IMG/VR virus record: IMGVR_UViG_3300046167_000554
Coordinates: 1-64,000 of that record
DNA: 64,000 bases
Direction: 5' to 3' (one strand)
Source of the DNA: a virus
Under the pieces are notes generated by a model. The model did not search any database and had not been told where the DNA came from. It saw only the letters and a list, made by a program, of their open reading frames with translations. Below, one piece after another: positions 8-47,589 of this stretch. The position numbers were made by a program, and so were the translations under genes. Position 1 is the stretch's first letter. The number at the start of each line of letters is the position of its first letter.

Positions 8-688
8 ATGTGTGCAATATTTGGAAGTAGTGATAAAGACAAGTTTTTAGAACTTGCAAAATTGAATGAATACAGAGGTTCAACTGCTTGGTCTTGTACT
101 ATTTTAACTGCATGTAAATTTAAACACTATTATGAAGGTATAAATCTTGTCTCATCAGAATCAGTTGAGAAGAACCATCTCACTACTGATATGTTAATAG
201 ACTTGTCATCTACTATTAATGAATACGAGTCAGTAACTAAAAATGATAGTGGAGAGGTCACTTACTACCTTGGTCATACTCAAACACCAACAACACAAAG
301 TTTAGAACATCATCCATCTGTTTATGGTGAAGATTATCTTTGGCACAATGGTATCATTAAAGAAAACCAAAGAGAGGTTTGGAAAAAACAATATGGTGAA
401 GTAGAATGGGATACAGCTTTACTTCATAGACATATGATACTTAATGGAAGTCTATCTGATGTAGATGGGACATTCTCATGTGTAAGATACAGAGACAAAA
501 AATTAAAAGTTTTCAGAAATGAAATAAGTCCATTGTTCTTTGATAAAGAACTGAACATAAGTTCAGTAGAATTTGAAGATGCAATGGAAACGGAGAGTGG
601 TTTTGTTTATGAATTGGATATACAATCTAAAGAATTAGAAAAACAAAATCATTTTAAAACTAAAGAAAACCCATACTACTTTGGGTAG
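8..688 (+). CDS. Class II (Ntn-type) glutamine amidotransferase, likely partner of the 7-deazaguanine pathway
   Basis: The protein (226 aa) starts Met-Cys, the arrangement that exposes the catalytic N-terminal cysteine of class II glutamine amidotransferases after Met removal. Other family motifs are visible: a GHTQTPTT segment near residue 90, LWHNGIIKEN near 112, and a DGTFSCV..RD-like region near 155-175 ending in SPLFF. The domain hydrolyses glutamine and passes ammonia to a partner. It lies directly before folE and dpdA, and queC is at 32 kb. In other phages an amidotransferase fused to QueC (Gat-QueC) is tied to conversion of preQ0 to the archaeosine base in DNA; here the two parts would be separate genes. 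The specific acceptor is inferred. Confidence 0.75.
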   Translation: MCAIFGSSDKDKFLELAKLNEYRGSTAWSCTILTACKFKHYYEGINLVSSESVEKNHLTTDMLIDLSSTINEYESVTKNDSGEVTYYLGHTQTPTTQSLEHHPSVYGEDYLWHNGIIKENQREVWKKQYGEVEWDTALLHRHMILNGSLSDVDGTFSCVRYRDKKLKVFRNEISPLFFDKELNISSVEFEDAMETESGFVYELDIQSKELEKQNHFKTKENPYYFG

Positions 689-724
689 CGTGACAAAACC
701 ACGTTTATAAAAAATGGAGATATC

Positions 725-1384
725 ATGAAATATGATGCAGAGTTAGGAAATAAAGTAAAGGAACATCTAGAAAGTCTAGGTGTAGAAACACCAATGAATG
801 GTGGAAGAAGTGATAATGTGGATGAAATGGCAAGTGCTTTTCATACCATTATGGAAAGAATAGGTTGTGATATGCATGACGACAGTATGAAGGATAGTCC
901 TCATAGAGTTGCATCAATGTATATCGATGAGTTATTTGTAGGGATGGATTATAACAAGTTCCCTAAATGTACTACATTTGAAAACAAATATAATTTTGAT
1001 TCAATGGTAGTTCAAAAAAATATCATTGTTAAGTCAGTATGTGAACATCATTTTCAAACCATTTATGGTAAGTGTCATATTGCATACATCCCAAATCCCG
1101 AAACTGGATATGTTGTTGGGTTATCAAAACTAAATCGTATTGCAAACTTTTTTAGTCGTAGACCACAAGTACAGGAAAGGTTATCAGAACAGATTTTCAG
1201 AGCGTTACAATTTATTTTGGGAACAGAAGATGTTGCAGTGTTTATGGATGCAGACCATTTTTGTGTTAAAGCAAGAGGTGTAGAAGATGTAAACTCATCA
1301 ATGACGACATCTAGATTAGGTGGTGCATTCTTTGATGATGAAAGAACTCGTAATGAATTCATTGCAATTATAACATCATGTTAA
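725..1384 (+). CDS. folE: GTP cyclohydrolase I
   Basis: This 219 aa protein opens GTP and forms dihydroneopterin triphosphate, the first step towards folate and 7-deazaguanine. Zinc and active-site motifs of FolE are present: CEHHFQTIYGKCHIAYIP near residue 103, GLSKLNRIANFFSRRPQVQE near 132, and HFCVKARGV near 178 followed by the MTTSRLGGAF segment. Length matches the family. Placement between the amidotransferase and DpdA points to preQ0 synthesis rather than folate. A GGAG lies close before the ATG (aaatggagatatcatg). QueD and QueE are not seen here and may lie upstream of the window. Confidence 0.95.
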   Translation: MKYDAELGNKVKEHLESLGVETPMNGGRSDNVDEMASAFHTIMERIGCDMHDDSMKDSPHRVASMYIDELFVGMDYNKFPKCTTFENKYNFDSMVVQKNIIVKSVCEHHFQTIYGKCHIAYIPNPETGYVVGLSKLNRIANFFSRRPQVQERLSEQIFRALQFILGTEDVAVFMDADHFCVKARGVEDVNSSMTTSRLGGAFFDDERTRNEFIAIITSC

Positions 1385-1626
1385 CACTACCCGACATAAT
1401 AGGTTATATTGGAGTAATAATATTGTTAGGAACTTATGCAGCCTTACAGTTAGATAAGATAGACCCTAAAGGTTTTTGGTATAGTTTTAATAATATGATT
1501 GTTGCTATACTTATAACAGTAAGTCTAGTATATAAGATGAATCCTGCTAGTCAAGTTATAGAAGTGTTTTGGTTTTTTATAAGTGCAATTGGACTTTGGA
1601 AATGGTATAGTAAGAAACATGATTAA
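1378..1626 (+). CDS. Small membrane protein of the CBU_0592 type
   Basis: The 82 aa protein has three hydrophobic segments (about residues 5-23, 35-50 and 58-75). Its pattern GYIGVIILLGTYAALQLDKI...EVFWFFISAIGLWKW resembles the bacterial CBU_0592 family of small membrane proteins of unknown function. The ATG overlaps the folE stop (ATGTTAA), and its own stop overlaps the dpdA start, so it is translated as part of the folE-dpdA operon. A role in the DNA-modification pathway, such as transport of a precursor, is only a guess from position. Confidence 0.7.
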   Translation: MLTLPDIIGYIGVIILLGTYAALQLDKIDPKGFWYSFNNMIVAILITVSLVYKMNPASQVIEVFWFFISAIGLWKWYSKKHD

Positions 1627-2965
1627 TTTTGAATATGTAATCTCGGGAATGACCATGGGTATGTCAGACATGTACAATAAAGTAGAAGTCTTAGAACCAT
1701 ATGCAGATACATTCAATGAAAAGGTTACACATATAGATAACAAGTATTCTAATCAAAATGTATCTATGTTGTTCAATTCATATTGTGAACCTAAACATGG
1801 TGAGACAATTAGAGAACTAATGCCTTCTTGGCATCATCACTTTTCAGATAGTGGTGGACTACAAATATCAAGAAGTAAGAAAGGACTAACACCCGAAATT
1901 AGAGATAAGATTTACACTCACCAAGCTACCTATTCAGATGTTGCAATGATATTCGATGATATTCCTGTAGAATTTGATGGGTCAAATACTGGTTGGTCAA
2001 TGAAGACTTCTACAGCAGGTAGAAGATTTGTTAGAGAACTAACAGGCGAGAAAGCAAGGTCAACACTTGGAAATGTTAAAAGACAAATAGAAATCTTTAA
2101 TAAGTTAGAGAGTGACACTAAGATAACACTTATCGTTCAAGGACAAGATGTAGACTCTTACAGAGAATACATTGAGACCATTGTTAATGGATTAACCGAT
2201 GAAGAACTAAAAAGTTGTGTGTCAATATCTCTTGCATCTGCATGTTCGGGTTCAGGCTTCAACAATAGAATGGAAATGATTTATGCATGTAAAGAGTTTC
2301 AGATACCAATGGAACTTAAAAGTAATGTTCATTTATTAGGTGTTGGTTCACATGATATGATGACACCATTTTTTGTTTCACCCGAGTATTTTGACTTTGT
2401 TAAAACACTTTCATACGACTCATCCACACAAGCAAACTCATGGTTCTTTTCAAGATATAGAAATAAAGATTGGAAGAATATAGAGATTGATAGTCCAGCA
2501 GGTGATTACAGACAAAGAAGAAACGACTCTCCAAATACAGAGAGAGTAACATCAAGCACGGGTAAAACACTAGAACAAATGTATACCGAACAACTTGTCC
2601 CATCATATGGAGAACTCTTTGAATTAAATAAAGATGCATTTACTAAATTCGGAATTCCTAACCTTAAACATCTTATTGAAGAGTCAACCAAATGGTCTAC
2701 AAAAAATGTCGAAAAGGCAAGACTATATAATAGTGATGAAGGAAAACATGGTGCTAAACTATTACCTTTCTTTAATCAAATGCAAGTAGTAGAACACTTT
2801 ATGGATAGAGTTCAGAAACTAACAGATAATCCAAGTCAGATAAAGGACAGGGGATTATCTCAAGTTAAAGATTGGGATATGTTTATTAATGGTTGGTTAC
2901 CTTATCAAGGAACTATGGATAAGTTACCAACAGAATTTGCTGGGAGTTTAAGTGAGTTTTTCTAA
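1619..2965 (+). CDS. dpdA: DpdA-like DNA-guanine transglycosylase (TGT superfamily)
   Basis: The 448 aa protein shows the tRNA-guanine transglycosylase fold signature HHFSDSGGLQISRSK near residue 80 (the Asp of DSGG is the substrate-binding acid), then DVAMIFDDIPV near 107, and HLLGVGSHDMM followed by FDFVKTLSYDSSTQ near 240-262, where the Asp is the likely nucleophile. Phage proteins of this kind (DpdA) exchange guanine in DNA for a 7-deazaguanine such as preQ0, which protects against restriction. The ATG at 1619 overlaps the previous stop. FolE and an amidotransferase are in the same operon and QueC is further on, giving a near-complete pathway. Confidence 0.85.
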   Translation: MINFEYVISGMTMGMSDMYNKVEVLEPYADTFNEKVTHIDNKYSNQNVSMLFNSYCEPKHGETIRELMPSWHHHFSDSGGLQISRSKKGLTPEIRDKIYTHQATYSDVAMIFDDIPVEFDGSNTGWSMKTSTAGRRFVRELTGEKARSTLGNVKRQIEIFNKLESDTKITLIVQGQDVDSYREYIETIVNGLTDEELKSCVSISLASACSGSGFNNRMEMIYACKEFQIPMELKSNVHLLGVGSHDMMTPFFVSPEYFDFVKTLSYDSSTQANSWFFSRYRNKDWKNIEIDSPAGDYRQRRNDSPNTERVTSSTGKTLEQMYTEQLVPSYGELFELNKDAFTKFGIPNLKHLIEESTKWSTKNVEKARLYNSDEGKHGAKLLPFFNQMQVVEHFMDRVQKLTDNPSQIKDRGLSQVKDWDMFINGWLPYQGTMDKLPTEFAGSLSEFF

Positions 2966-8781: not shown

Positions 8782-10136
8782 AGAGTTTACACGGAAGGTC
8801 ATCCCGTTCATAAAGGACGAGTATTTCACCGACCAAACAGAGAGGACAGTATTTACAGAAGTAAAGGATTACTTTGACAAATACACCAAAGCACCAACAG
8901 TCGAAGCACTTCTCATAAACCTTGATAACAATACCTCGTTAAACGAGAATGTGGTAAAAGGTTCTAAGACAATAGTTGATGCAATTGGAAAATCCAATGA
9001 ACCCACTCCATCCGAATGGTTGGAAAACGAAACTGAACAATGGTGCAAAGATAGAGCAATCTATATTGCAGTCATGGATAGTATCGAGGTCATTGATAAG
9101 AAGTCTCAAAGGTCAACAGGTGAAATACCCGAACTCCTTAAGGATGCACTTTCCGTGTCCTTTGACGTGTCAATCGGACACGACCAAATCGAAGACAAGG
9201 ATGCAAGATTTGAATTCTACAATACGGAAGAAGAGAAGTTACCTTTCGATTTAGAATACTTCAATAAGATTACTAAAGGTGGATTACCCAACAAGACACT
9301 CAATATCTGTTTAGCAGGTACGGGTGTCGGTAAGTCATTATTCATGTGTCACATGGGTGCAAGTCACTTGATGATGAACAAGAATGTTCTTTACATCACA
9401 ATGGAAATGTCAGAGGAAAGGATTGCAGAGAGGATTGATGCAAACATCATGAATGTCCCAATGCAAGAGTTACCCGAAATGTCTAAGAAGATGTTTGATA
9501 AGAAGATTGATAAGATTGCAGAGAAGACTAAAGGTAGATTGATTGTTAAAGAATATCCTACTGCATCTGCACATGTCGGTCACTTCAGACATTTACTACA
9601 AGAACTTGATATTAAGAAAGATTTCACACCCGATATCATATTCATAGATTACCTAAACATATGTGCATCACATAGGATTAAGCCTGGTGCTGGTGCAAAC
9701 TCTTATACACTTGTTAAGAGTATTGCAGAGGAACTTAGAGGACTTGCAGTAGAGTTTGATGTACCAATTATGAGTGCAACTCAAACAACACGAAGTGGTT
9801 ATGGTTCTACTGATATTGAACTAACAGATACTTCAGAGTCATTTGGATTACCAGCAACTGCAGACTTAATGTTTGCATTGATTACATCTGATGAGTTAGA
9901 AGAGTTAGACCAGTTAGTTGTAAAACAATTGAAGAACCGATACAATGACCCAACTATATTCAAAAGATTTGTCATAGGAATTGACAGAGCAAGAATGAAG
10001 TTGTATGATTGTGAACAAGAAGCTTTTTTTAGCTCAAGAAGAATTGATTGAGTCTGCAGTGAATGATGATGTTCCTGTATTTGATAGAGGAAGAAATGAC
10101 GGACAGAAAAGAGATTTCAACGATTTTAAAATCTAA
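8732..10136 (+). CDS. 41: Replicative DNA helicase (T4 gp41, DnaB family), 3' end frameshifted
   Basis: A DnaB-type hexameric helicase that unwinds the lagging-strand template and works with primase gp61 (26.6 kb) and loader gp59 (61.0 kb). Walker A is [16 protein letters not shown] near residue 195; Walker B is [13 protein letters not shown] near 304; ATQTTRSG near 351 and the Arg-finger region [15 protein letters not shown] follow. The frame breaks in a seven-T run near 10025-10031; removing one T continues as [17 protein letters not shown] and ends at 10136, giving the expected acidic tail. This is almost certainly a homopolymer sequencing error. Confidence 0.93.
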
Positions 10137-10144
10137 AAAACCCC

Positions 10145-10174
10145 TTGTCAGTGAGTGTCTTTTTTATGTATAAT
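10145..10174 (+). promoter_or_regulatory. Sigma70-like class A promoter for the lipoprotein gene, predicted leaderless
   Basis: AAAAAACCCC-TTGTCA, 18-base spacer, TATAAT. Six bases (ACCAGT) separate the -10 box from the ATG at 10181, so +1 should fall on the A of the start codon. Confidence 0.75.
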
Positions 10175-10180
10175 ACCAGT

Positions 10181-11651
10181 ATGAAAAACTTAATAACAAT
10201 ATTAACAGTAGGACTACTCACAGCATGTGGTGGTGGAAGTTCAGTAACACCAATAGAACTACAAACATTAACAACGACTGGTGGTAATCCACCTATGGGT
10301 TCATCCCCTATATTGACCACTGTAGTCATTGATGGATATGTAGAAGGTGCAAATGTCTTTATAGATATGAACTGGAATCTAACTCAAGATGAGGGAGAAC
10401 CAAGTGCAGAATATGATAGTGATACACAATCTTATTTCTTTACGGAATCCCAATTTAGTGCAGTCAATAACTTTTCAACAACAAACTGTTCATTGAATAG
10501 ACCTAGGATTGCAGAAGTACCAATAGGTGCATATGACTCGGAACGTGGATATGTAGAAACTGCATATACAATGAGTTATTATCCACCCACATATAATCAG
10601 AATAGTGGACGTGCAAATGTAACACCATTCACTACATTGTTTGCAGAATATGTTACCGATGCATTACAAGGTGTCAGTATAACAGTTGCAGATAGTTGTG
10701 GGTCAACTGCAGATACTGTTTCACAAACAGTTATAGAAAAGGTAGACAGTGTTCTATACGACCTCTATCAAAACTTTAATCAATCAGCAGACCAATTGTA
10801 TTCAGACTTTATTGCAAGTGGTGATACAGAATTACAAGCTATAGGAGAAAGGATTGTAGACTTCTTAGGAACTATTAACAAGGTTGCAGATGTATTAGAA
10901 AATGAATACAATCTTCCTATGTTATCAACCCTAAATCCCGAATTAATATCTACCATTCTAAATGGAACAGAGTTCTCTACCATTACATTCAATCTAATGA
11001 ATGAAACAGTAGGGTGAACAAGTAGATGATGATTTTAGATTTCAGAGACGACATTTGTTCTATAACATTGTTGCAAATGACCAAGGTCAAATACTAGATG
11101 CAGAGGGAAATCCTATTGTAATATCTTCGACCACATTAAGTGAGGTTGCAGATACATCTATATCAGAAAACTATGAATCAATAGGAGATACTTTTGAGAC
11201 ACCAGTTATCATTGCAATAGAAGTAATCAATGGTGTATCCGATAGTTACATAAGATTCTTATCGGGTAATGGACATCTTGCATATACTATAAGAGGAGAC
11301 ATGAGATTCGTTCAAAATGTAGTTCCTATGGAATCTGATTTTGAAATACGAATGAATAATACAAACAACACATACTATGATTATGACCTACTTGACCTTA
11401 TGTCATATAGAGATGTGTATACCATACAGAACATTTACACCGAACTTAGTCAACTATCCACTGTAATGTCAAGTTATGAGACACTTACATACCTATTGTA
11501 TAGTGGAGACTTGATTCAGTACAATGAAAACAACCATGCATATACCAATGGCCCTTCAACAAGGGAAACATGTGAGGTTTTCCAAGGTGCATCAGTTACA
11601 ACTTACTATGATAATGAGGGGTATAATATTTGTTCTAATAATATGCAATAA
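10181..11651 (+). CDS. Secreted lipoprotein, unknown function (one frameshift)
   Basis: The N-terminus MKNLITILTVGLLTACGGGS is a clear lipoprotein signal peptide with lipobox LTAC. After it come VIDGYVEGANVFIDMNWN and a Glu/Asp-rich stretch LTQDEGEPSAEY, like the DxNxN...DxGEPsA regions of marine gammaproteobacterial lipoproteins, and VTPFTTLFAEYV near residue 150. The frame breaks at GGG near 11012; dropping one G links the first 278 residues to a second half (EQVDDDFRFQRRHLFYN...) that ends at 11651, about 490 aa in all. It has its own promoter and looks like a cargo gene that modifies the host envelope. Function not recognised. Confidence 0.7.
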
Positions 11652-11654
11652 ATA
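11647..11654 (+). promoter_or_regulatory. Late promoter-like box
   Basis: AATAAATA, 10 bases before the ATG at 11665 and overlapping the stop of the lipoprotein gene. It marks the start of the late, virion-type block. Confidence 0.45.
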
Positions 11655-11664
11655 GATATACATT

Positions 11665-11841
11665 ATGAAGAAGAACCTCAAGTCTAGTGACGTAATCAAT
11701 GCATTAACTGATAAAATACAGTTAAAGAAAGACTTACGTGTAGCAAAAAAACAAGACGATTCCCAAAAAACTGCTAAAATTTCCAAACAGATTGCAAAAA
11801 TCGATAAGAAACTCCACTCGATACCATTGAAGAAATCCTAA
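11665..11841 (+). CDS. Small basic hypothetical protein
   Basis: A 58 aa Lys-rich helical protein (MKKNLKSSDVINALTDKIQLKKD). A late box lies just upstream. Its stop overlaps the next late box (CTAAATAAA at 11838). Function unknown; small basic helical proteins in this position could be DNA-binding or virion components. Confidence 0.55.
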   Translation: MKKNLKSSDVINALTDKIQLKKDLRVAKKQDDSQKTAKISKQIAKIDKKLHSIPLKKS

Positions 11842-11868
11842 ATAAAGGTATACATTTAGGAGATACTC

Positions 11869-12246
11869 ATGGCATGGGCAGATGAAATAGCAGGTCACAA
11901 TACTTTAATTGATGATATGCAAAGACAAAAAGACTGGATTAGTGGTGTAAGTCGTACATGGTTTGAAGGTGTAACAACTGGAACCAGTTTAATAGAAAGA
12001 ACAGCAGATGGTGCTGTCGGATATTTTACTGCATGGAGAACTGCAAACCCTTCAGCAACAGCAGAAAGTGACCGAGCAGGATACGAACTTTGGGATTACT
12101 GGATTAATGGTCAGATGGGTAGTGGTTCTGAGTCTAAAACCAAAGACGAAGTTGTAGTTGAATTAACTAACGGAATAGCAGCCATTACTGCAGATAGAGA
12201 CAGTTTACAAGCAAAAATAGACAACGGAGAAGTTGACGGGGGTTAA
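11869..12246 (+). CDS. Hypothetical protein, probable late gene
   Basis: A 125 aa protein with a Trp-rich N-terminal half (MAWADEIAGHNTLIDDMQRQ, TWFEGVTTGTS, WDYWINGQMG) and a helical tail (ELTNGIAAITADRDSLQAKI). A TAAATA box at 11838-11846 and GGAGATACTC precede the ATG. It heads the virion-type block, so a structural or assembly role is possible but not shown. Confidence 0.6.
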   Translation: MAWADEIAGHNTLIDDMQRQKDWISGVSRTWFEGVTTGTSLIERTADGAVGYFTAWRTANPSATAESDRAGYELWDYWINGQMGSGSESKTKDEVVVELTNGIAAITADRDSLQAKIDNGEVDGG

Positions 12247-27599: not shown

Positions 27600-29918
27600 A
27601 CGACACAACAATCAAAGTAGTCAAGTCGGATGGTTCTAAGGTAGAGATAAACTTAGAGAAGATTCATAGAATGGTAGAGAAAGCATGTAAAGGAATTACA
27701 GGTGTATCAGAATCATTAGTTGAAATGAATAGTGGATTACAGTTCTATGATGGAATTACCACAACAGACATCCAAAAGATTTTAGTTAAGTCTGCAAGTG
27801 ATTTGATATCACTAGAGAATCCTAATTACCAATTCGTTGCATCAAGACTATTGTTGTTTGGAATACAGAAACAAGTATTCAATACCAAGTGGAAGGACTC
27901 AACAATTTATCCACCACTTTATGATATCATTGAGAAGAATATCAAACAGGGTGTTTACTCTAAAGATATCCTAAAAGTATATGATGCTTGAAGAGATAGA
28001 CCAGTGCAACAAATACATTAGACATAACAGAGATTTAGATTTCACTTACGCAGGACTACAACAGATTGTAGACAAGTACTTGGTGCAAGATAGAAGTAAT
28101 GGAAAGGTGTTTGAGACACCTCAATTCATGTACATGTTAATTGCAATGACCCTATTCAGAAACTATGACGAAGATAAGAGATTAGACTATGTTAAAAGAT
28201 ACTATGACGCAATATCAACTTTTAAAATCAATATACCCACACCTATTATGGCAGGGGTCAGAACACCATTACGACAATTTGCATCATGTGTCCTCGTTGA
28301 TTCAGACGATACCCTCGATTCAATCTTTTCGAGTGACATGGCAATCGGAAGATATGTTGCCCAACGTGCTGGAATTGGAATTAACGCAGGAAGAATACGA
28401 GGACTTGGTGCAAAGATACGAGGTGGAGAAGTCCAACATACAGGAGTCATTCCATTCCTCAAAAAGTTTGAAGCAACAGTCAGAAGTTGTACCCAAAACG
28501 GAGTCAGAGGTGGAAGTGCAACAGTCCATTTCCCAATATGGCACCAAGAAATCAACGACATTATTGTCCTCAAGAATAATAAAGGCACGGAAGATAACAG
28601 AGTTAGGAAATTAGACTACTCCATTCAGTTATCTAAACTATTCTATGAAAGGTTTCTAAAGAATGAGGAGATTACATTGTTCTCTCCACATGATGTCAAA
28701 GGATTGTATGATGCATTTGGAACACCCGAGTTTGATGAACTCTATGAGAGGTATGAACGTGCAACATCTATTCCAAAGACAAAGGTAAGTGCAAGAGAAT
28801 TGTTTACTGCAATTCTAAAGGAACGTGCAGAGACAGGTAGGATTTACATCATGAACATTGACCATTGTAATAGTCATAGTTCATTCACTGATAAGGTGAA
28901 CATGAGTAACCTATGTCAAGAGATTACATTACCAACAGACCCAATCAGTCACATTGATGGAGAAGGAGAGATTGCATTATGTATTCTATCTGCAATCAAT
29001 GTAGGTATCATTAAGTTAGATGAATTGGGTAATCTATGTGACCTTGCAGTAAGAGGATTGGAAGAGTTGATTGATTATCAACAGTATCCAGTTGAGGCTG
29101 CAGAGAGGTCAACACTTGCACGTAGGTCATTAGGTATTGGTTACATTGGTCTTGCACATTTCCTTGCAAAGAACAAGGTCAAGTATAACGACCCCGAAGC
29201 ACATAGACTAGTGCATGAACTAACAGAGAAGTTCCAATACCATTTATTATGTGCATCTAATCAGATTGCATCAGAGAAGGGTGCATGTGAATACTATGAC
29301 AGAACTAAGTATGCACAAGGTATCTTACCCATTGACACCTACAAGAAAGAAGTAGATGATATTGTCCCAAATGAGTTAAAAGAAGATTGGGAAAAACTAA
29401 GAGTTCGTATCAAAGTTCATGGACTAAGACACTCCACATTGACTGCACAAATGCCCTCTGAGAGTTCCTCAGTCGTCTCTAATGCAACCAATGGAATAGA
29501 ACCACCAAGAGACTACCTTAGTGTCAAGAAGAGTAAAAAAGGAACCCTTAAACAAGTAGTTCCACAATATACTCACCTTAAGAATGCATATACCTTACTA
29601 TGGGATATGGAAGACAACATGGGATACATCAAAGTCGTTGCAGTGATGCAGAAGTTCTTTGACCAAGCAATCAGTGGTAACTGGTCGTATAATCCCGAGA
29701 ACTATGAAAATAATGAAGTACCTATAAGTGTCATGGCAACAGACCTATTGAACACTTACAAATACGGATGGAAGACATCATATTATCAGAATACCATGGA
29801 TGGTAAAACTGAAGATGTAATTACAGACCCAAACTCTGCGTCTAATGATTACATACCACCTATGATGGATTCTCCACCACTTGAAGATGAGGACGATTGT
29901 GAAGCGTGTGCTATTTGA
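27596..29918 (+). CDS. nrdA: Class Ia ribonucleotide reductase, large subunit (one frameshift)
   Basis: It reduces ribonucleoside diphosphates to deoxy forms with NrdB. An N-terminal ATP-cone (IKVVKSDGSKVEINLEKIHR) is followed by the catalytic barrel with RQFASCVLVDSDDT (active-site Cys), NMSNLCQEITLP, the AQMPSESSSVVSNATNGIEP region and a C-terminal redox pair DDCEACAI. The frame breaks near 27983-27988 (tatgatgcttgaag). Removing one base joins LKVYD to the EEIDQCNKYIRHNRDL segment, matching the family. A sequencing indel is the likely cause. About 773 aa after correction. Confidence 0.93.
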
Positions 29919-29922
29919 GGAA

Positions 29923-30885
29923 ATGACTGTTGATTATATCAACATGACTGAAGAACCCCATAACAAAATAGAAGGGAAACATCTAACTGGGAGAACTAAT
30001 CCCGAGACATGGTCTTTGATGAAGGATAGGTTTGTTGTATTAAGAAACTTCATACCCGAATCAATTACCAACATGTCATTAGATGCATGGAAGACTATTG
30101 AAAGTAATGAAGAAGTTGATGCAGTTATCTTCCATAAAGAACATGAGATAACCCAAGGGTCACCTAAAGAAAGTCTAGGTAAGTCTAAAGCAGGATACTG
30201 CACACCTCATGGTGTTGCATTGCATAGATGGTTAGGTGATGAACTTAAGGGTATTATTGATATGGATTTAAGAGAGACCTATTCATATACTAGAAAGTAT
30301 GACAGAGGTGCATACCTTAGAGCTCATACTGATAGACCATCATGTGAAATCTCTGCAACAGTTTGTCTTGACTACCATTGTGATGATGGGAAACCATGGT
30401 CGATATGGGTGCAGAATGAAGAAGACTATATTGACTTAGGATGCATGGAAAAGGCATTTGAGATATCACAAGGACTTCCTCATAGAAAGAGAAAGGGAAT
30501 CAAAATTGATTTAGAGGTCGGAGATGTATTATTATATCAAGGGCCGAATGTAATCCATTGGAGAGATTATCTACTAGGAGATTACAGTTACCATATCTTC
30601 ATGCATTTTATTAATAGAGAAGGTAAAATGGGTCAAATTAATGAATGGAGTTCGAATCCCACTGGGGAAGACTATCCAAGTGGAAGTCAGTATCCCGTTC
30701 TAACATTTGATGGTAGGTCGGATAGGTATTCAAAGGAAATTTGGGATAGTCCCCATAAAGAAGCAATGAATAAATTCAATGCAGTCTATGAATCAATAGA
30801 CAATAAGACTAAATATGTTAACAATTTTAGTGACCTAGAATTATATGACCCGAAGGAAAGAAGAAAAAGAAATGACAGTATTTAA
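29923..30885 (+). CDS. 2OG-Fe(II) oxygenase-like protein
   Basis: A 320 aa protein with a double-stranded beta-helix dioxygenase signature: YSYTRKYDRGAYLRAHTDRP near residue 121 (HxD iron ligands in HTD) and GDVLLYQGPNVIHWRDYLLG near 204 (distal His), followed by YSYHIFMHFIN. The family couples 2-oxoglutarate decarboxylation to hydroxylation; substrates in phages are mostly unknown. Start 29923 (MTVDYIN) follows the nrdA stop with GAGGAA upstream. Its position between nrdA and nrdB is odd for this family but seen as an insertion in compact phage operons. Confidence 0.8.
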   Translation: MTVDYINMTEEPHNKIEGKHLTGRTNPETWSLMKDRFVVLRNFIPESITNMSLDAWKTIESNEEVDAVIFHKEHEITQGSPKESLGKSKAGYCTPHGVALHRWLGDELKGIIDMDLRETYSYTRKYDRGAYLRAHTDRPSCEISATVCLDYHCDDGKPWSIWVQNEEDYIDLGCMEKAFEISQGLPHRKRKGIKIDLEVGDVLLYQGPNVIHWRDYLLGDYSYHIFMHFINREGKMGQINEWSSNPTGEDYPSGSQYPVLTFDGRSDRYSKEIWDSPHKEAMNKFNAVYESIDNKTKYVNNFSDLELYDPKERRKRNDSI

Positions 30886-31969: not shown

Positions 31970-32136
31970 TGGATGCAGTAGTATTGATAGGTATTATGTG
32001 GGTTGCACTAGTATCTTTAGTGTCATTCTTCTTTTTTGATGAGGGTACAAAGGGGGTGCAGAGAGACCCTTATTACGGGAAGAAAACAGGAACAATATAT
32101 ACTGCAAAATCATCACGAAGTGACCATCTATTGTGA
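31966..32136 (+). CDS. Small membrane protein
   Basis: A 56 aa product with one strong N-terminal membrane segment (VVLIGIMWVALVSLVSFFFF) and a polar tail ending KSSRSDHLL. It overlaps the nrdB stop and the queC start (TTGTGA), so translation is coupled on both sides. Function unknown. Confidence 0.6.
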   Translation: MMDAVVLIGIMWVALVSLVSFFFFDEGTKGVQRDPYYGKKTGTIYTAKSSRSDHLL

Positions 32137-32777
32137 GTTGGAATGATGACTATGCAGTAGTGTTGATGTCGGGTGGAGTTGAATCCACTGCAACACTTGA
32201 TTGGGCAGTAAAGAAGAAGTATAAGAAACTTATTGCAGTCCATAGTATGTGGACAGACATAGAGATAACAGGGTCACGAGAGTTTAACCCAAACATACAA
32301 AAGATATGTGATTGGTATGATGTACCATTATACATATATAAACAATCTAACCCTTTAGAGGGATTAGATATTGAAGGGATTGATTATGTGCATTCCTCAA
32401 ACCATTGGTTGATTACTGCAATGAATATTGCATCAAGGTATCCAACAATAAAGAACTTCCTTTGGGGAGTCAACAATGGGATAAGGGCAGTTGGAGATAG
32501 TGGTGGAGATTTTCCATTCCTTCCAAGGTCATGGCAGTTCACAATTGCATTTGACCAATATGTGCATAACATGGGTAAGGATGGGGGTCAACGATTATGG
32601 CCACCTTGTTCATTCATGACCAAGTTGCAGATGTGGGAAACGATTCCCGATGAAGTCAAACCACTGGTTCAATCATGTGGAAGACCACTTAAATACGATG
32701 GTGTATCACCATGTGGGGAGTGTTTTAAGTGTAATGAATTTAAGACAATGTTAGATGGTGTAACCCCAAAACCATAA
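32133..32777 (+). CDS. queC: 7-cyano-7-deazaguanine (preQ0) synthase QueC
   Basis: A 214 aa ATP-dependent enzyme that turns carboxy-deazaguanine into preQ0. The PP-loop is AVVLMSGGVESTATLDW near residue 8. The zinc site is C-terminal: SCGRPLKYDGVSPCGECFKC near 183 (four Cys as in QueC). It starts at GTG overlapping the preceding gene. With FolE, the amidotransferase and DpdA at the left end it supports 7-deazaguanine DNA modification. It is 30 kb from those genes, in the nucleotide-metabolism operon. Confidence 0.88.
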   Translation: MSWNDDYAVVLMSGGVESTATLDWAVKKKYKKLIAVHSMWTDIEITGSREFNPNIQKICDWYDVPLYIYKQSNPLEGLDIEGIDYVHSSNHWLITAMNIASRYPTIKNFLWGVNNGIRAVGDSGGDFPFLPRSWQFTIAFDQYVHNMGKDGGQRLWPPCSFMTKLQMWETIPDEVKPLVQSCGRPLKYDGVSPCGECFKCNEFKTMLDGVTPKP

Positions 32778-45806: not shown

Positions 45807-47589
45807 ATGAAAATATATGGAGTTAATACATCTCATGACACTGCACTTTGTGTGAATGATGATGGTGTTATAAAAGATGTCTTTGAAGAAGAACGTAGTC
45901 GTAGACAAAAATACTTTACGATAGGTGAAAAGGAATGGGATACAGGTCTTGTTCTTGTTGAACATAAACAATTGGAGACGCCTGATGAGATTGTCTTTGC
46001 ATCTTTTGATAGACGACAACTCTCAATAGAGTTTAACGAAGACTTAATGAGGTTTAAACGTAAGAATCAAGACGAACTCTTGGAAGCCTTTACAGAATCC
46101 CAACTTACCTCAGATAGAATCGAAGAGATAAAACAAGAACACCCACAATGGTTTAATGTCTCAGACAATGTTTGTGAAGACAGTGACCATGGTATGTCGG
46201 AACCCGACTTTGCTATTTGTGAATCGGTTGCAGAACAACTGGGTATTGAAGAATATTTCTTTGAACACGAACATCACCTGTATCATGCAGAGTGTGGTTA
46301 TATTTTAAGTCCTTGGAAAGATACCGAAGATGCAATTGCAATTACCTTTGATGGTGGTGGAGCTCAGAAACATTATGATGCATATCCTAATTATCAAGAG
46401 ATAGAAGGTATATGGAAGTGTAGTCCGAACACTACACCCGTTCCTCAATTTCAGAAATTCTCTAACCATAGATTTTGTGGTGAGTTACACAATCAGTCTT
46501 TCAGTAATTACATGGAAGATTGTTTCACATGTCTTACTGATTTAACAGAAACCATTGATGGTGTTGAATGTGTCTTTACTAGTTTACCTAGTATGGGTAT
46601 GAACTTCTCTAACATGTCCTATGCACTTGGTTGTGACGACCATGGTCGTGCCGCAGGTAAGGTTATGGGAATGGCTTCCTATGGGTCACAAGGTCTCTCG
46701 ACCAATGTTTTTAATAAGTTTACAGTAGCACAAGAACTTGAGTTACAATCCTTTGGTCATACATGTGATTTAATACAGAAAGCAATCGATTTAAATCCCG
46801 AAATAAATAATATTGTATTGAGTGGTGGATTTGCATTAAATTGTACTAACAATTATAAGTACCTTCTTGCATTCCCCGACAAACAATTCTTTGTCGACCC
46901 CATTCCACATGATGGTGGGACAAGTGTTGGTGCATCATCTATATTATACAGAAATATCAAAGAGGGAGAAACAGAAAATGTTATTGACTAATATATTAAG
47001 AGACCAAGAAGACGTGGTCAGAAGTTTAATTGACGACAAACAAATTATTGGTATGTTTCAGAATGCCTCTGAGTGGGGCCCTCGTGCATTAGGTAATCGT
47101 TCTATTATATTTGACCCTAGACATGAAGAAGCAAAACAAATCGTCAACGAGGTCAAACAGAGAGAAGCATACAGACCTTTTGCATGTACTGTATTAAAAG
47201 AAAATGCATCTGAATATTTTGAGATGTTACAATTAGAAGAATCCCCATGGATGTCATTTGCTATTCAAGCAAAAGAAAAAGCATATGATGAGATTCCTTC
47301 ATTGGTTCATGCAGACGGAACATGTAGAATCCAAACAGTGACCCAAGAACAGAACCCTAATTATTATAATCTAATAAAAGCATTTGGTGACGAGACTGGA
47401 ACTCCTATCTTGTTTAACACTTCATTTAACTTAGGTGGTGAATCATTAGTAGAAACAATCTATGATGCAATCGACACTTGTAATCGTTCAATGATTAATC
47501 AACTCTATGTTCCAATAGACCAAGAGATTGAAATACCTTATGCAATGATTAGACCCAAGAACACAAAAGAAATACAAAAAAGTGATTGA
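45807..47589 (+). CDS. Carbamoyltransferase (NodU/TobZ family), split by a frameshift
   Basis: The first part (394 aa) has MKIYGVNTSHDTALCVNDDG, EHEHHLYHAECGY near residue 152 (HHxxHA, Kae1-like metal site), LSGGFALNCTNNYKYL near 337 and PHDGGTSVGASSIL near 366. The second part has MFQNASEWGPRALGNRSIIF and LFNTSFNLGGESLVETIYDA, the YrdC-like C-terminal domain. The frame changes at 46978-46991. The second part has its own possible ATG (46978, with GGGAGA upstream), so a true split is possible. The family carbamoylates hydroxyl groups; in phages it is suspected to act on modified DNA bases. Confidence 0.85.

Follow-up and report, generated by a model that had tools for sequence, protein, structure and literature searches.

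What does a small glutamine amidotransferase do among genes for the modification of phage DNA with 7-deazaguanines? The question is raised by positions 8–2,965 of the metagenomic IMG/VR virus record IMGVR_UViG_3300046167_000554 (153,514 bp), of which positions 1–64,000 form the stretch hereafter called the window; the record is cut inside the operon concerned. An earlier, sequence-only reading had taken the first gene for the Gat half of Gat-QueC, the fused enzyme associated with deoxyarchaeosine (dG+) in DNA, and had proposed that this phage may carry the archaeosine-type base. Our comparisons favour a different role. Judged from gene linkage and conserved motifs, the standalone Gat and QueC probably constitute a two-subunit, glutamine-dependent preQ0 synthase. 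We give roughly even chances to a broader proposal, namely that a phage QueC subfamily (motif YxQxQxxE) and its dedicated class II glutaminase form a constant base-making module, around which QueF, DUF5591 and DUF6884 proteins are interchangeable, each with a matching DpdA2.

Scans of viral contigs, bacterial genomes and phage isolates yielded 102 distinct standalone gats, and queC was present in the locus of every one of them. The distance from the queC stop to the gat start was at most 60 nucleotides (nt) in 90 loci and at most 760 nt in 101. When the search was reversed and started from QueC, a gat was found within about 3 kb for 62 of the 63 distinct QueCs of the subfamily; the sole gat-less QueC is followed by merely 1 kb of sequence. 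Isolate QueCs more than 50% identical to that of Vibrio phage KVP40 came from gat-bearing phages only, among the matches listed (a spread sample). In the bacterial and archaeal genomes scanned, a standalone Gat turned up at just four loci. These probably stem from phage contigs that binning had placed in metagenome-assembled genomes, and therefore offered no usable bacterial queuosine context.

In the record analysed here, queC lies across the contig cut, at the far end (locus L010, record 136001–153514). The last 60 bases of the record and the first bases of the window are contiguous without a gap in two independent contigs (98.6–98.9% identical), and the genes therefore form one operon running from queD through dpdA2:

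Record 151185–151622, far end of the record: queD.
Record 151582–152418, far end of the record: queE.
Record 152336–152821, far end of the record: gene for a DUF6884 protein (PF21818, 2e-14).
Record 152818 onward, running off the record end: queC (TIGR00364, 172.7 bits against a cut-off of 150.3).
Window 8–688, + strand: Gat, class II glutamine amidotransferase of 226 aa (catalytic landmarks, AlphaFold2 fold).
Window 725–1384, + strand: FolE, GTP cyclohydrolase I (PF01227, 8.3e-56; NCBIfam FolE above its cut-off).
Window 1378–1626, + strand: small membrane protein of the CBU_0592 family (NF047864, 83.9 bits against a cut-off of 25), overlapping folE.
Window 1619–2965, + strand: DpdA2, similar to tRNA-guanine transglycosylase (TGT) (phrog_10773, 4e-60; tblastn matches to DpdA2 of the nt-1, KVP40 and pf16 type).

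The joined order is queD-queE-DUF6884-queC-gat-folE-CBU_0592-dpdA2, and nearly all neighbours overlap or abut. At the junction the queC product ends in ...DWKV and the queC stop overlaps the gat ATG as TAATG, while the DUF6884 gene overlaps queC by 4 nt. FolE performs the first step of preQ0 synthesis, and with FolE in the window and QueD, QueE and QueC at record 151185–153514 the set of preQ0 pathway genes is complete; QueD and QueE score under the NCBIfam cut-offs and over those of Pfam. The sequence-only reading had noted that queD and queE were missing from the window and suggested looking upstream, and both were indeed found there, across the contig cut. QueF was not found in the record: no match came from PF14489, from a profile built of QueFs or from three phage QueFs used as queries.

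Gat was correctly described as an unfused class II amidotransferase beside folE; fusion to QueC was seen in none of the 102 relatives. Its open reading frame begins M-C, and the landmarks C2, R23-G24, W112-H-N-G115 and W134-D135 are all present. They are invariant in an alignment of 54 diverse standalone Gats, although two of these motifs doubled as search patterns and their invariance is partly due to selection. The AlphaFold2 model (pLDDT 90.7, pTM 0.89) best matches glutaminase domains of GlmS/GFAT in Foldseek (E about 1e-8), followed by PurF, EgtC and asparagine synthetase. The window copy gives no hit in Pfam or NCBIfam; GATase_6 is matched by relatives only. With its N-terminal Cys, RG, HNG, Asp and predicted fold, Gat is, by motif and model, a member of the class II glutamine amidotransferase (N-terminal nucleophile, Ntn) superfamily.

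Its assignment as the Gat half of Gat-QueC was not borne out. A profile of the 54 members scored E. coli GlmS at 30.7, PurF at 23.0 and AsnB at 8.3 bits, and seven fused Gat domains at -1.0 to 13.0 bits (the fused Gat-QueC proteins compared were those of phages). Similarly, hhalign gave 94% for GlmS, 93% for PurF, 69% for AsnB and 3–65% for single fused Gats; the profile-profile alignment of standalone and fused Gats reached 78.6%, a likeness at superfamily level only. Because GlmS and PurF score above the fused domains, Gat shares a superfamily with the Gat of Gat-QueC, yet is by these scores not specifically its detached half.

The QueC partners also differ. Against the canonical motif set (SGGxDS, YxQxHxxE, VPxRN, YPDC and CxnCxxCxxC), the QueC of this record has SGGLDS, VPFRN and the CxxCxxC zinc motif, together with YxQxQxxE (H to Q) and YWDT for YPDC, as in most Gat-linked QueCs. 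The latter retain most canonical motifs, and YxQxQxxE was found in 100/100. In fused Gat-QueC (18 loci) the YxQxHxxE motif is lost, and these clusters have no QueF and use DpdA1.

Around this constant pair the tailoring genes change. Among the Gat loci, 68 were counted with QueF, 5 with a DUF5591 protein (the core domain of ArcS) and 8 with a DUF6884 protein, and QueF never stood beside either of the other two. Of the 81 loci whose upstream sequence extends over 3.5 kb or more, 56 had QueF only, 13 a DUF protein only, 12 neither and none both (Fisher 1.4e-8, a value that ignores relatedness among the loci). In many phages that lack QueF, the operon encodes DUF6884 or DUF5591. The NADPH-reductase motif (ESKSxKxY type) occurs in 62/62 full-length QueFs, so that QueF clusters should make preQ1. 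Vibrio isolate records gave 49 Gats, 46 QueFs and 3 DUF5591 proteins (nt-1 twice, CZ01); the totals agree, and were compared as totals only. The DUF5591 protein of nt-1 matches archaeal ArcS at 2e-7 and presumably corresponds to what Hutinet et al. call "ArcS", for which their main text gives no accession. No similarity between DUF5591 and DUF6884 was detected by hhalign.

A tree built from 46 Gats requires a minimum of seven switches in QueF status across well-supported branches, and in the clade of the window's Gat the carriers of DUF5591 and DUF6884 are intermingled. Phage nt-1 falls inside the KVP40 group; its cluster has DUF5591 and no QueF that we could find there, whereas KVP40 has QueF, and the two are 90% identical in Gat, 90% in QueC and 62% in DpdA2. 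More generally, among gat pairs at least 80% identical, DpdA2 identity averaged 95% across 10 pairs with a shared tailoring gene and 62% across 5 pairs with different ones (two independent contrasts). That Gat is kept beside queC whatever the tailoring gene is most simply explained if it acts before the pathways branch, i.e., with QueC.

DpdA2 is predicted to be a TGT-like enzyme that exchanges guanine in DNA. In hhalign it aligned with E. coli TGT at 86.9%, including DSGGLQ, MIFD, VQG and LLGVG (GlmS control, 0.1%), and DSGGLQ, FD, G187, LxGxG and D279 are invariant in 21 DpdA2s; HMMER against PDB gave no match. The frame is open from GTG 1583, but relatives start at the equivalent of MINFEYV, and the true start is probably ATG 1619. 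In several sister phages a purine-type phosphoribosyltransferase gene follows dpdA2 (locus L014, 8600–9076, and relatives); it is absent from the present record and could serve to salvage the guanine released by DpdA2.

QueC is described as using ammonia as nitrogen donor, in two ATP-dependent steps that lead via ADG (PMC13329287). In the scheme that we favour, FolE, QueD, QueE and QueC would make preQ0, with Gat hydrolysing glutamine and handing the ammonia to QueC; we infer both this transfer and the formation of a complex. The conversion of CDG to preQ0 by QueC takes two ATP-dependent steps and one ammonia, and QueC-Gat would be organised like a two-subunit GMP synthase. DpdA2 would then insert the 7-deazaguanine base into DNA. 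The swappable gene, together with DpdA2, would determine the final base: preQ1 through QueF, and, where QueF is missing, another product through DUF5591 or, in the source phage, a DpdC-like DUF6884 protein, the role of which we infer.

Published mass spectrometry bears on this scheme for two phages with a standalone Gat. In phage 6E351A, whose record (6E35.1a) encodes Gat and QueF, 15% of deoxyguanosine was reported as a nucleoside of 295 Da that would fit dPreQ1 (PMC12028318). In nt-1, dPreQ0 amounted to 0.11%, dADG to 0.035% and dG+ to 0.02% of Gs (PMC6884629). Neither has dG+ as its main modified base, and the same Gat stands beside 68 QueFs; the archaeosine-type base that had been deduced from Gat is thus not indicated by Gat itself. 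For the source phage dPreQ0 is our leading candidate, though short of an even chance; dADG is conceivable but doubtful, dG+ unlikely, and any other base somewhat less likely still.

Several observations nevertheless weigh against a dedicated QueC-Gat synthase. The gat gene is more than 60 nt from queC in 12 of the 102 loci, and in one (L182) 6.4 kb away. Locus L021 combines a gat 94% like that of a DUF5591 cluster (L016) with a queC 91% like that of the present DUF6884 cluster, a mosaic that, judging by these identities, shows that the pair can recombine apart and that gat moves between cluster types. Phages CAjan and Rosebush have abundant dPreQ0 with QueC and, to our knowledge, no Gat, which means that a glutaminase is not required. 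Moreover, nt-1 is the only measured Gat phage without QueF and it does contain dG+, at the level given above, and Gat-QueC of phage 9g makes dG+ in E. coli, so that an amidotransferase plus QueC can yield this base (PMC6884629).

These last points agree with a split Gat-QueC, in which Gat and QueC would turn preQ0 into archaeosine that DpdA2 inserts (or would act on preQ0 already in DNA), giving dG+. The direct contact of gat with a true queC fits as well, as does the lack of QueF, shared with the 18 fused clusters. We regard it as unlikely, since the standalone Gat resembles GlmS and PurF more than the fused domains, 68 relatives occur in loci with QueF, the QueC motifs and DpdA type are not those of fused clusters, and the measured DNAs contain dPreQ0 at 5 times the dG+ level (nt-1) or dPreQ1 (6E351A). 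Alternatively, Gat could feed ammonia to the tailoring step, so that G+ or another amidine would arise only in clusters without QueF. The frequent presence of DUF6884 or DUF5591 genes in such operons, the ArcS match of the DUF5591 protein and the trace of dG+ in nt-1 would suit this idea, which we nonetheless consider quite improbable given that Gat is kept where QueF replaces the DUF proteins and that gat adjoins queC, not the tailoring gene. It is harder still to credit that Gat, being unrelated or inactive, simply hitchhikes: although Pfam does not call the window copy, its catalytic landmarks are invariant in 54–102 relatives (partly by selection through the search patterns) and its linkage to queC is kept across very diverse phages.

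A further explanation, compatible with QueC-Gat as preQ0 synthase, is that DUF6884 decides the final base whatever Gat does, acting as a DpdC-like nitrile hydratase that converts dPreQ0 to dADG. The gene sits inside the operon, and its product matches PADLOC DpdC at 8e-7, a weak match over about 50 residues only. As published dpdC carries DUF6884 (PMC11888242), this match suggests dADG. Conversely, PADLOC PDC-M57A is the better match; the protein has a single domain of 161 aa, half the length of DpdC, and the DUF6884 family is broad and has been proposed to possess a cleft that binds DNA (PMC11701544). The AlphaFold2 model (pLDDT 57) is too poor for fold comparison. In addition, Ares, a phage of the Rosebush type, carries a DUF6884 gene close to those for preQ0, and Rosebush DNA contains dPreQ0 and only a trace of dADG (PMC6884629). 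On balance, a decisive DUF6884 is possible but doubtful.

Outside the operon, one further gene had been drawn into the pathway:

Window 32133–32777, + strand: divergent PP-loop protein (SGGVES present, a motif resembling Cx12CxxCxxC present, VPxRN absent).

The sequence-only reading had assembled a preQ0-in-DNA pathway from FolE, DpdA and this protein as QueC. The pathway stands, completed by queD, queE and queC next door, but the protein at 32133 was rejected as its QueC (TIGR00364, 19.0 bits against 150.3), and it has no homologue among 50,697 phage records. The CBU_0592-type membrane protein noted inside the cluster was confirmed. A counterpart in nt-1 (L092, 11202–11456; 33% over 82 aa, 7e-15) adjoins queE there, and the location near preQ0 genes in both phages points tentatively to a common function, for instance transport.

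The window encodes a T4-like DNA polymerase and UvsX, and the nearest polymerases are those of marine cyanophages (about 48–49%), by which the source is, on sequence grounds, a T4-like tailed phage, probably of marine habitat. Directly upstream of queD are genes for Hsp20 and a peroxiredoxin (L010, 14085–15151). Farther upstream, a 612-aa protein with CHASE2 and adenylate/guanylate cyclase domains (L010, 11881–13719; record 147881–149719) lies beside NifU-like (11445–11888), FecR-domain (9558–10694) and curlin-like-repeat (10841–11488; no Pfam match) proteins. The window also has a Nol-like carbamoyltransferase (45807–46991) and, flanked by ribonucleotide reductase genes, a ferrochelatase-like PHROG match (29881–30885).

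If the favoured reading is true, QueC, known to use ammonia, gains a natural glutaminase partner, and a gene left as a hypothetical protein in KVP40, nt-1 and pf16 gains a name. The results also speak against taking a neighbouring Gat as a sign of archaeosine in phage DNA. The exchange of QueF, DUF5591 and DUF6884 with co-changing DpdA2 offers a route to predicting a phage's modified base, and also to the functions of DUF6884 and phage ArcS-like proteins. We found no description of a queC-linked Gat in the literature covered, which did not include the main reviews (Microbiology and Molecular Biology Reviews 2024, Nucleic Acids Research 2023) or the DpdC structure paper, so that priority is uncertain; the consulted passages of PMC6884629, PMC8056088 and PMC12028318 that list KVP40/nt-1 pathway genes do not mention the adjacent Gat.

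Among known systems, Gat-QueC of Enterobacteria phage 9g (Queuovirinae) and Crenarchaeota likewise joins a class II glutamine amidotransferase to QueC for 7-deazaguanine synthesis, but it is one fused protein with another amidotransferase subfamily, an altered QueC motif and DpdA1 in place of DpdA2; its dG+ product is proven in 9g. The two-subunit archaeal GMP synthase also consists of a PP-loop enzyme and a glutaminase that has its own gene, a functional analogy only, as it uses a class I amidotransferase, another substrate and no zinc motif (PMC13329287). DpdC of bacterial dpd islands brings a DUF6884/YaaA-type domain to a 7-deazaguanine DNA pathway, and the single-domain phage protein is only distantly similar. 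Closer is Pseudomonas phage pf16 (Chakrabartyvirus), with folE, dpdA2, queC, gat, queD and queE in one region beside the DNA polymerase, though with QueF between dpdA2 and queC and a Gat only 32% identical. The Vibrio phages KVP40 and nt-1 (Straboviridae) share FolE, QueD, QueC, DpdA2, the standalone Gat and T4-like replication genes with the source phage. Their queE lies elsewhere in the genome and not in the operon, and KVP40 has QueF and nt-1 DUF5591 where the source phage has DUF6884, but in both the gat start falls on the last base of queC, and Gat is annotated as a hypothetical protein.

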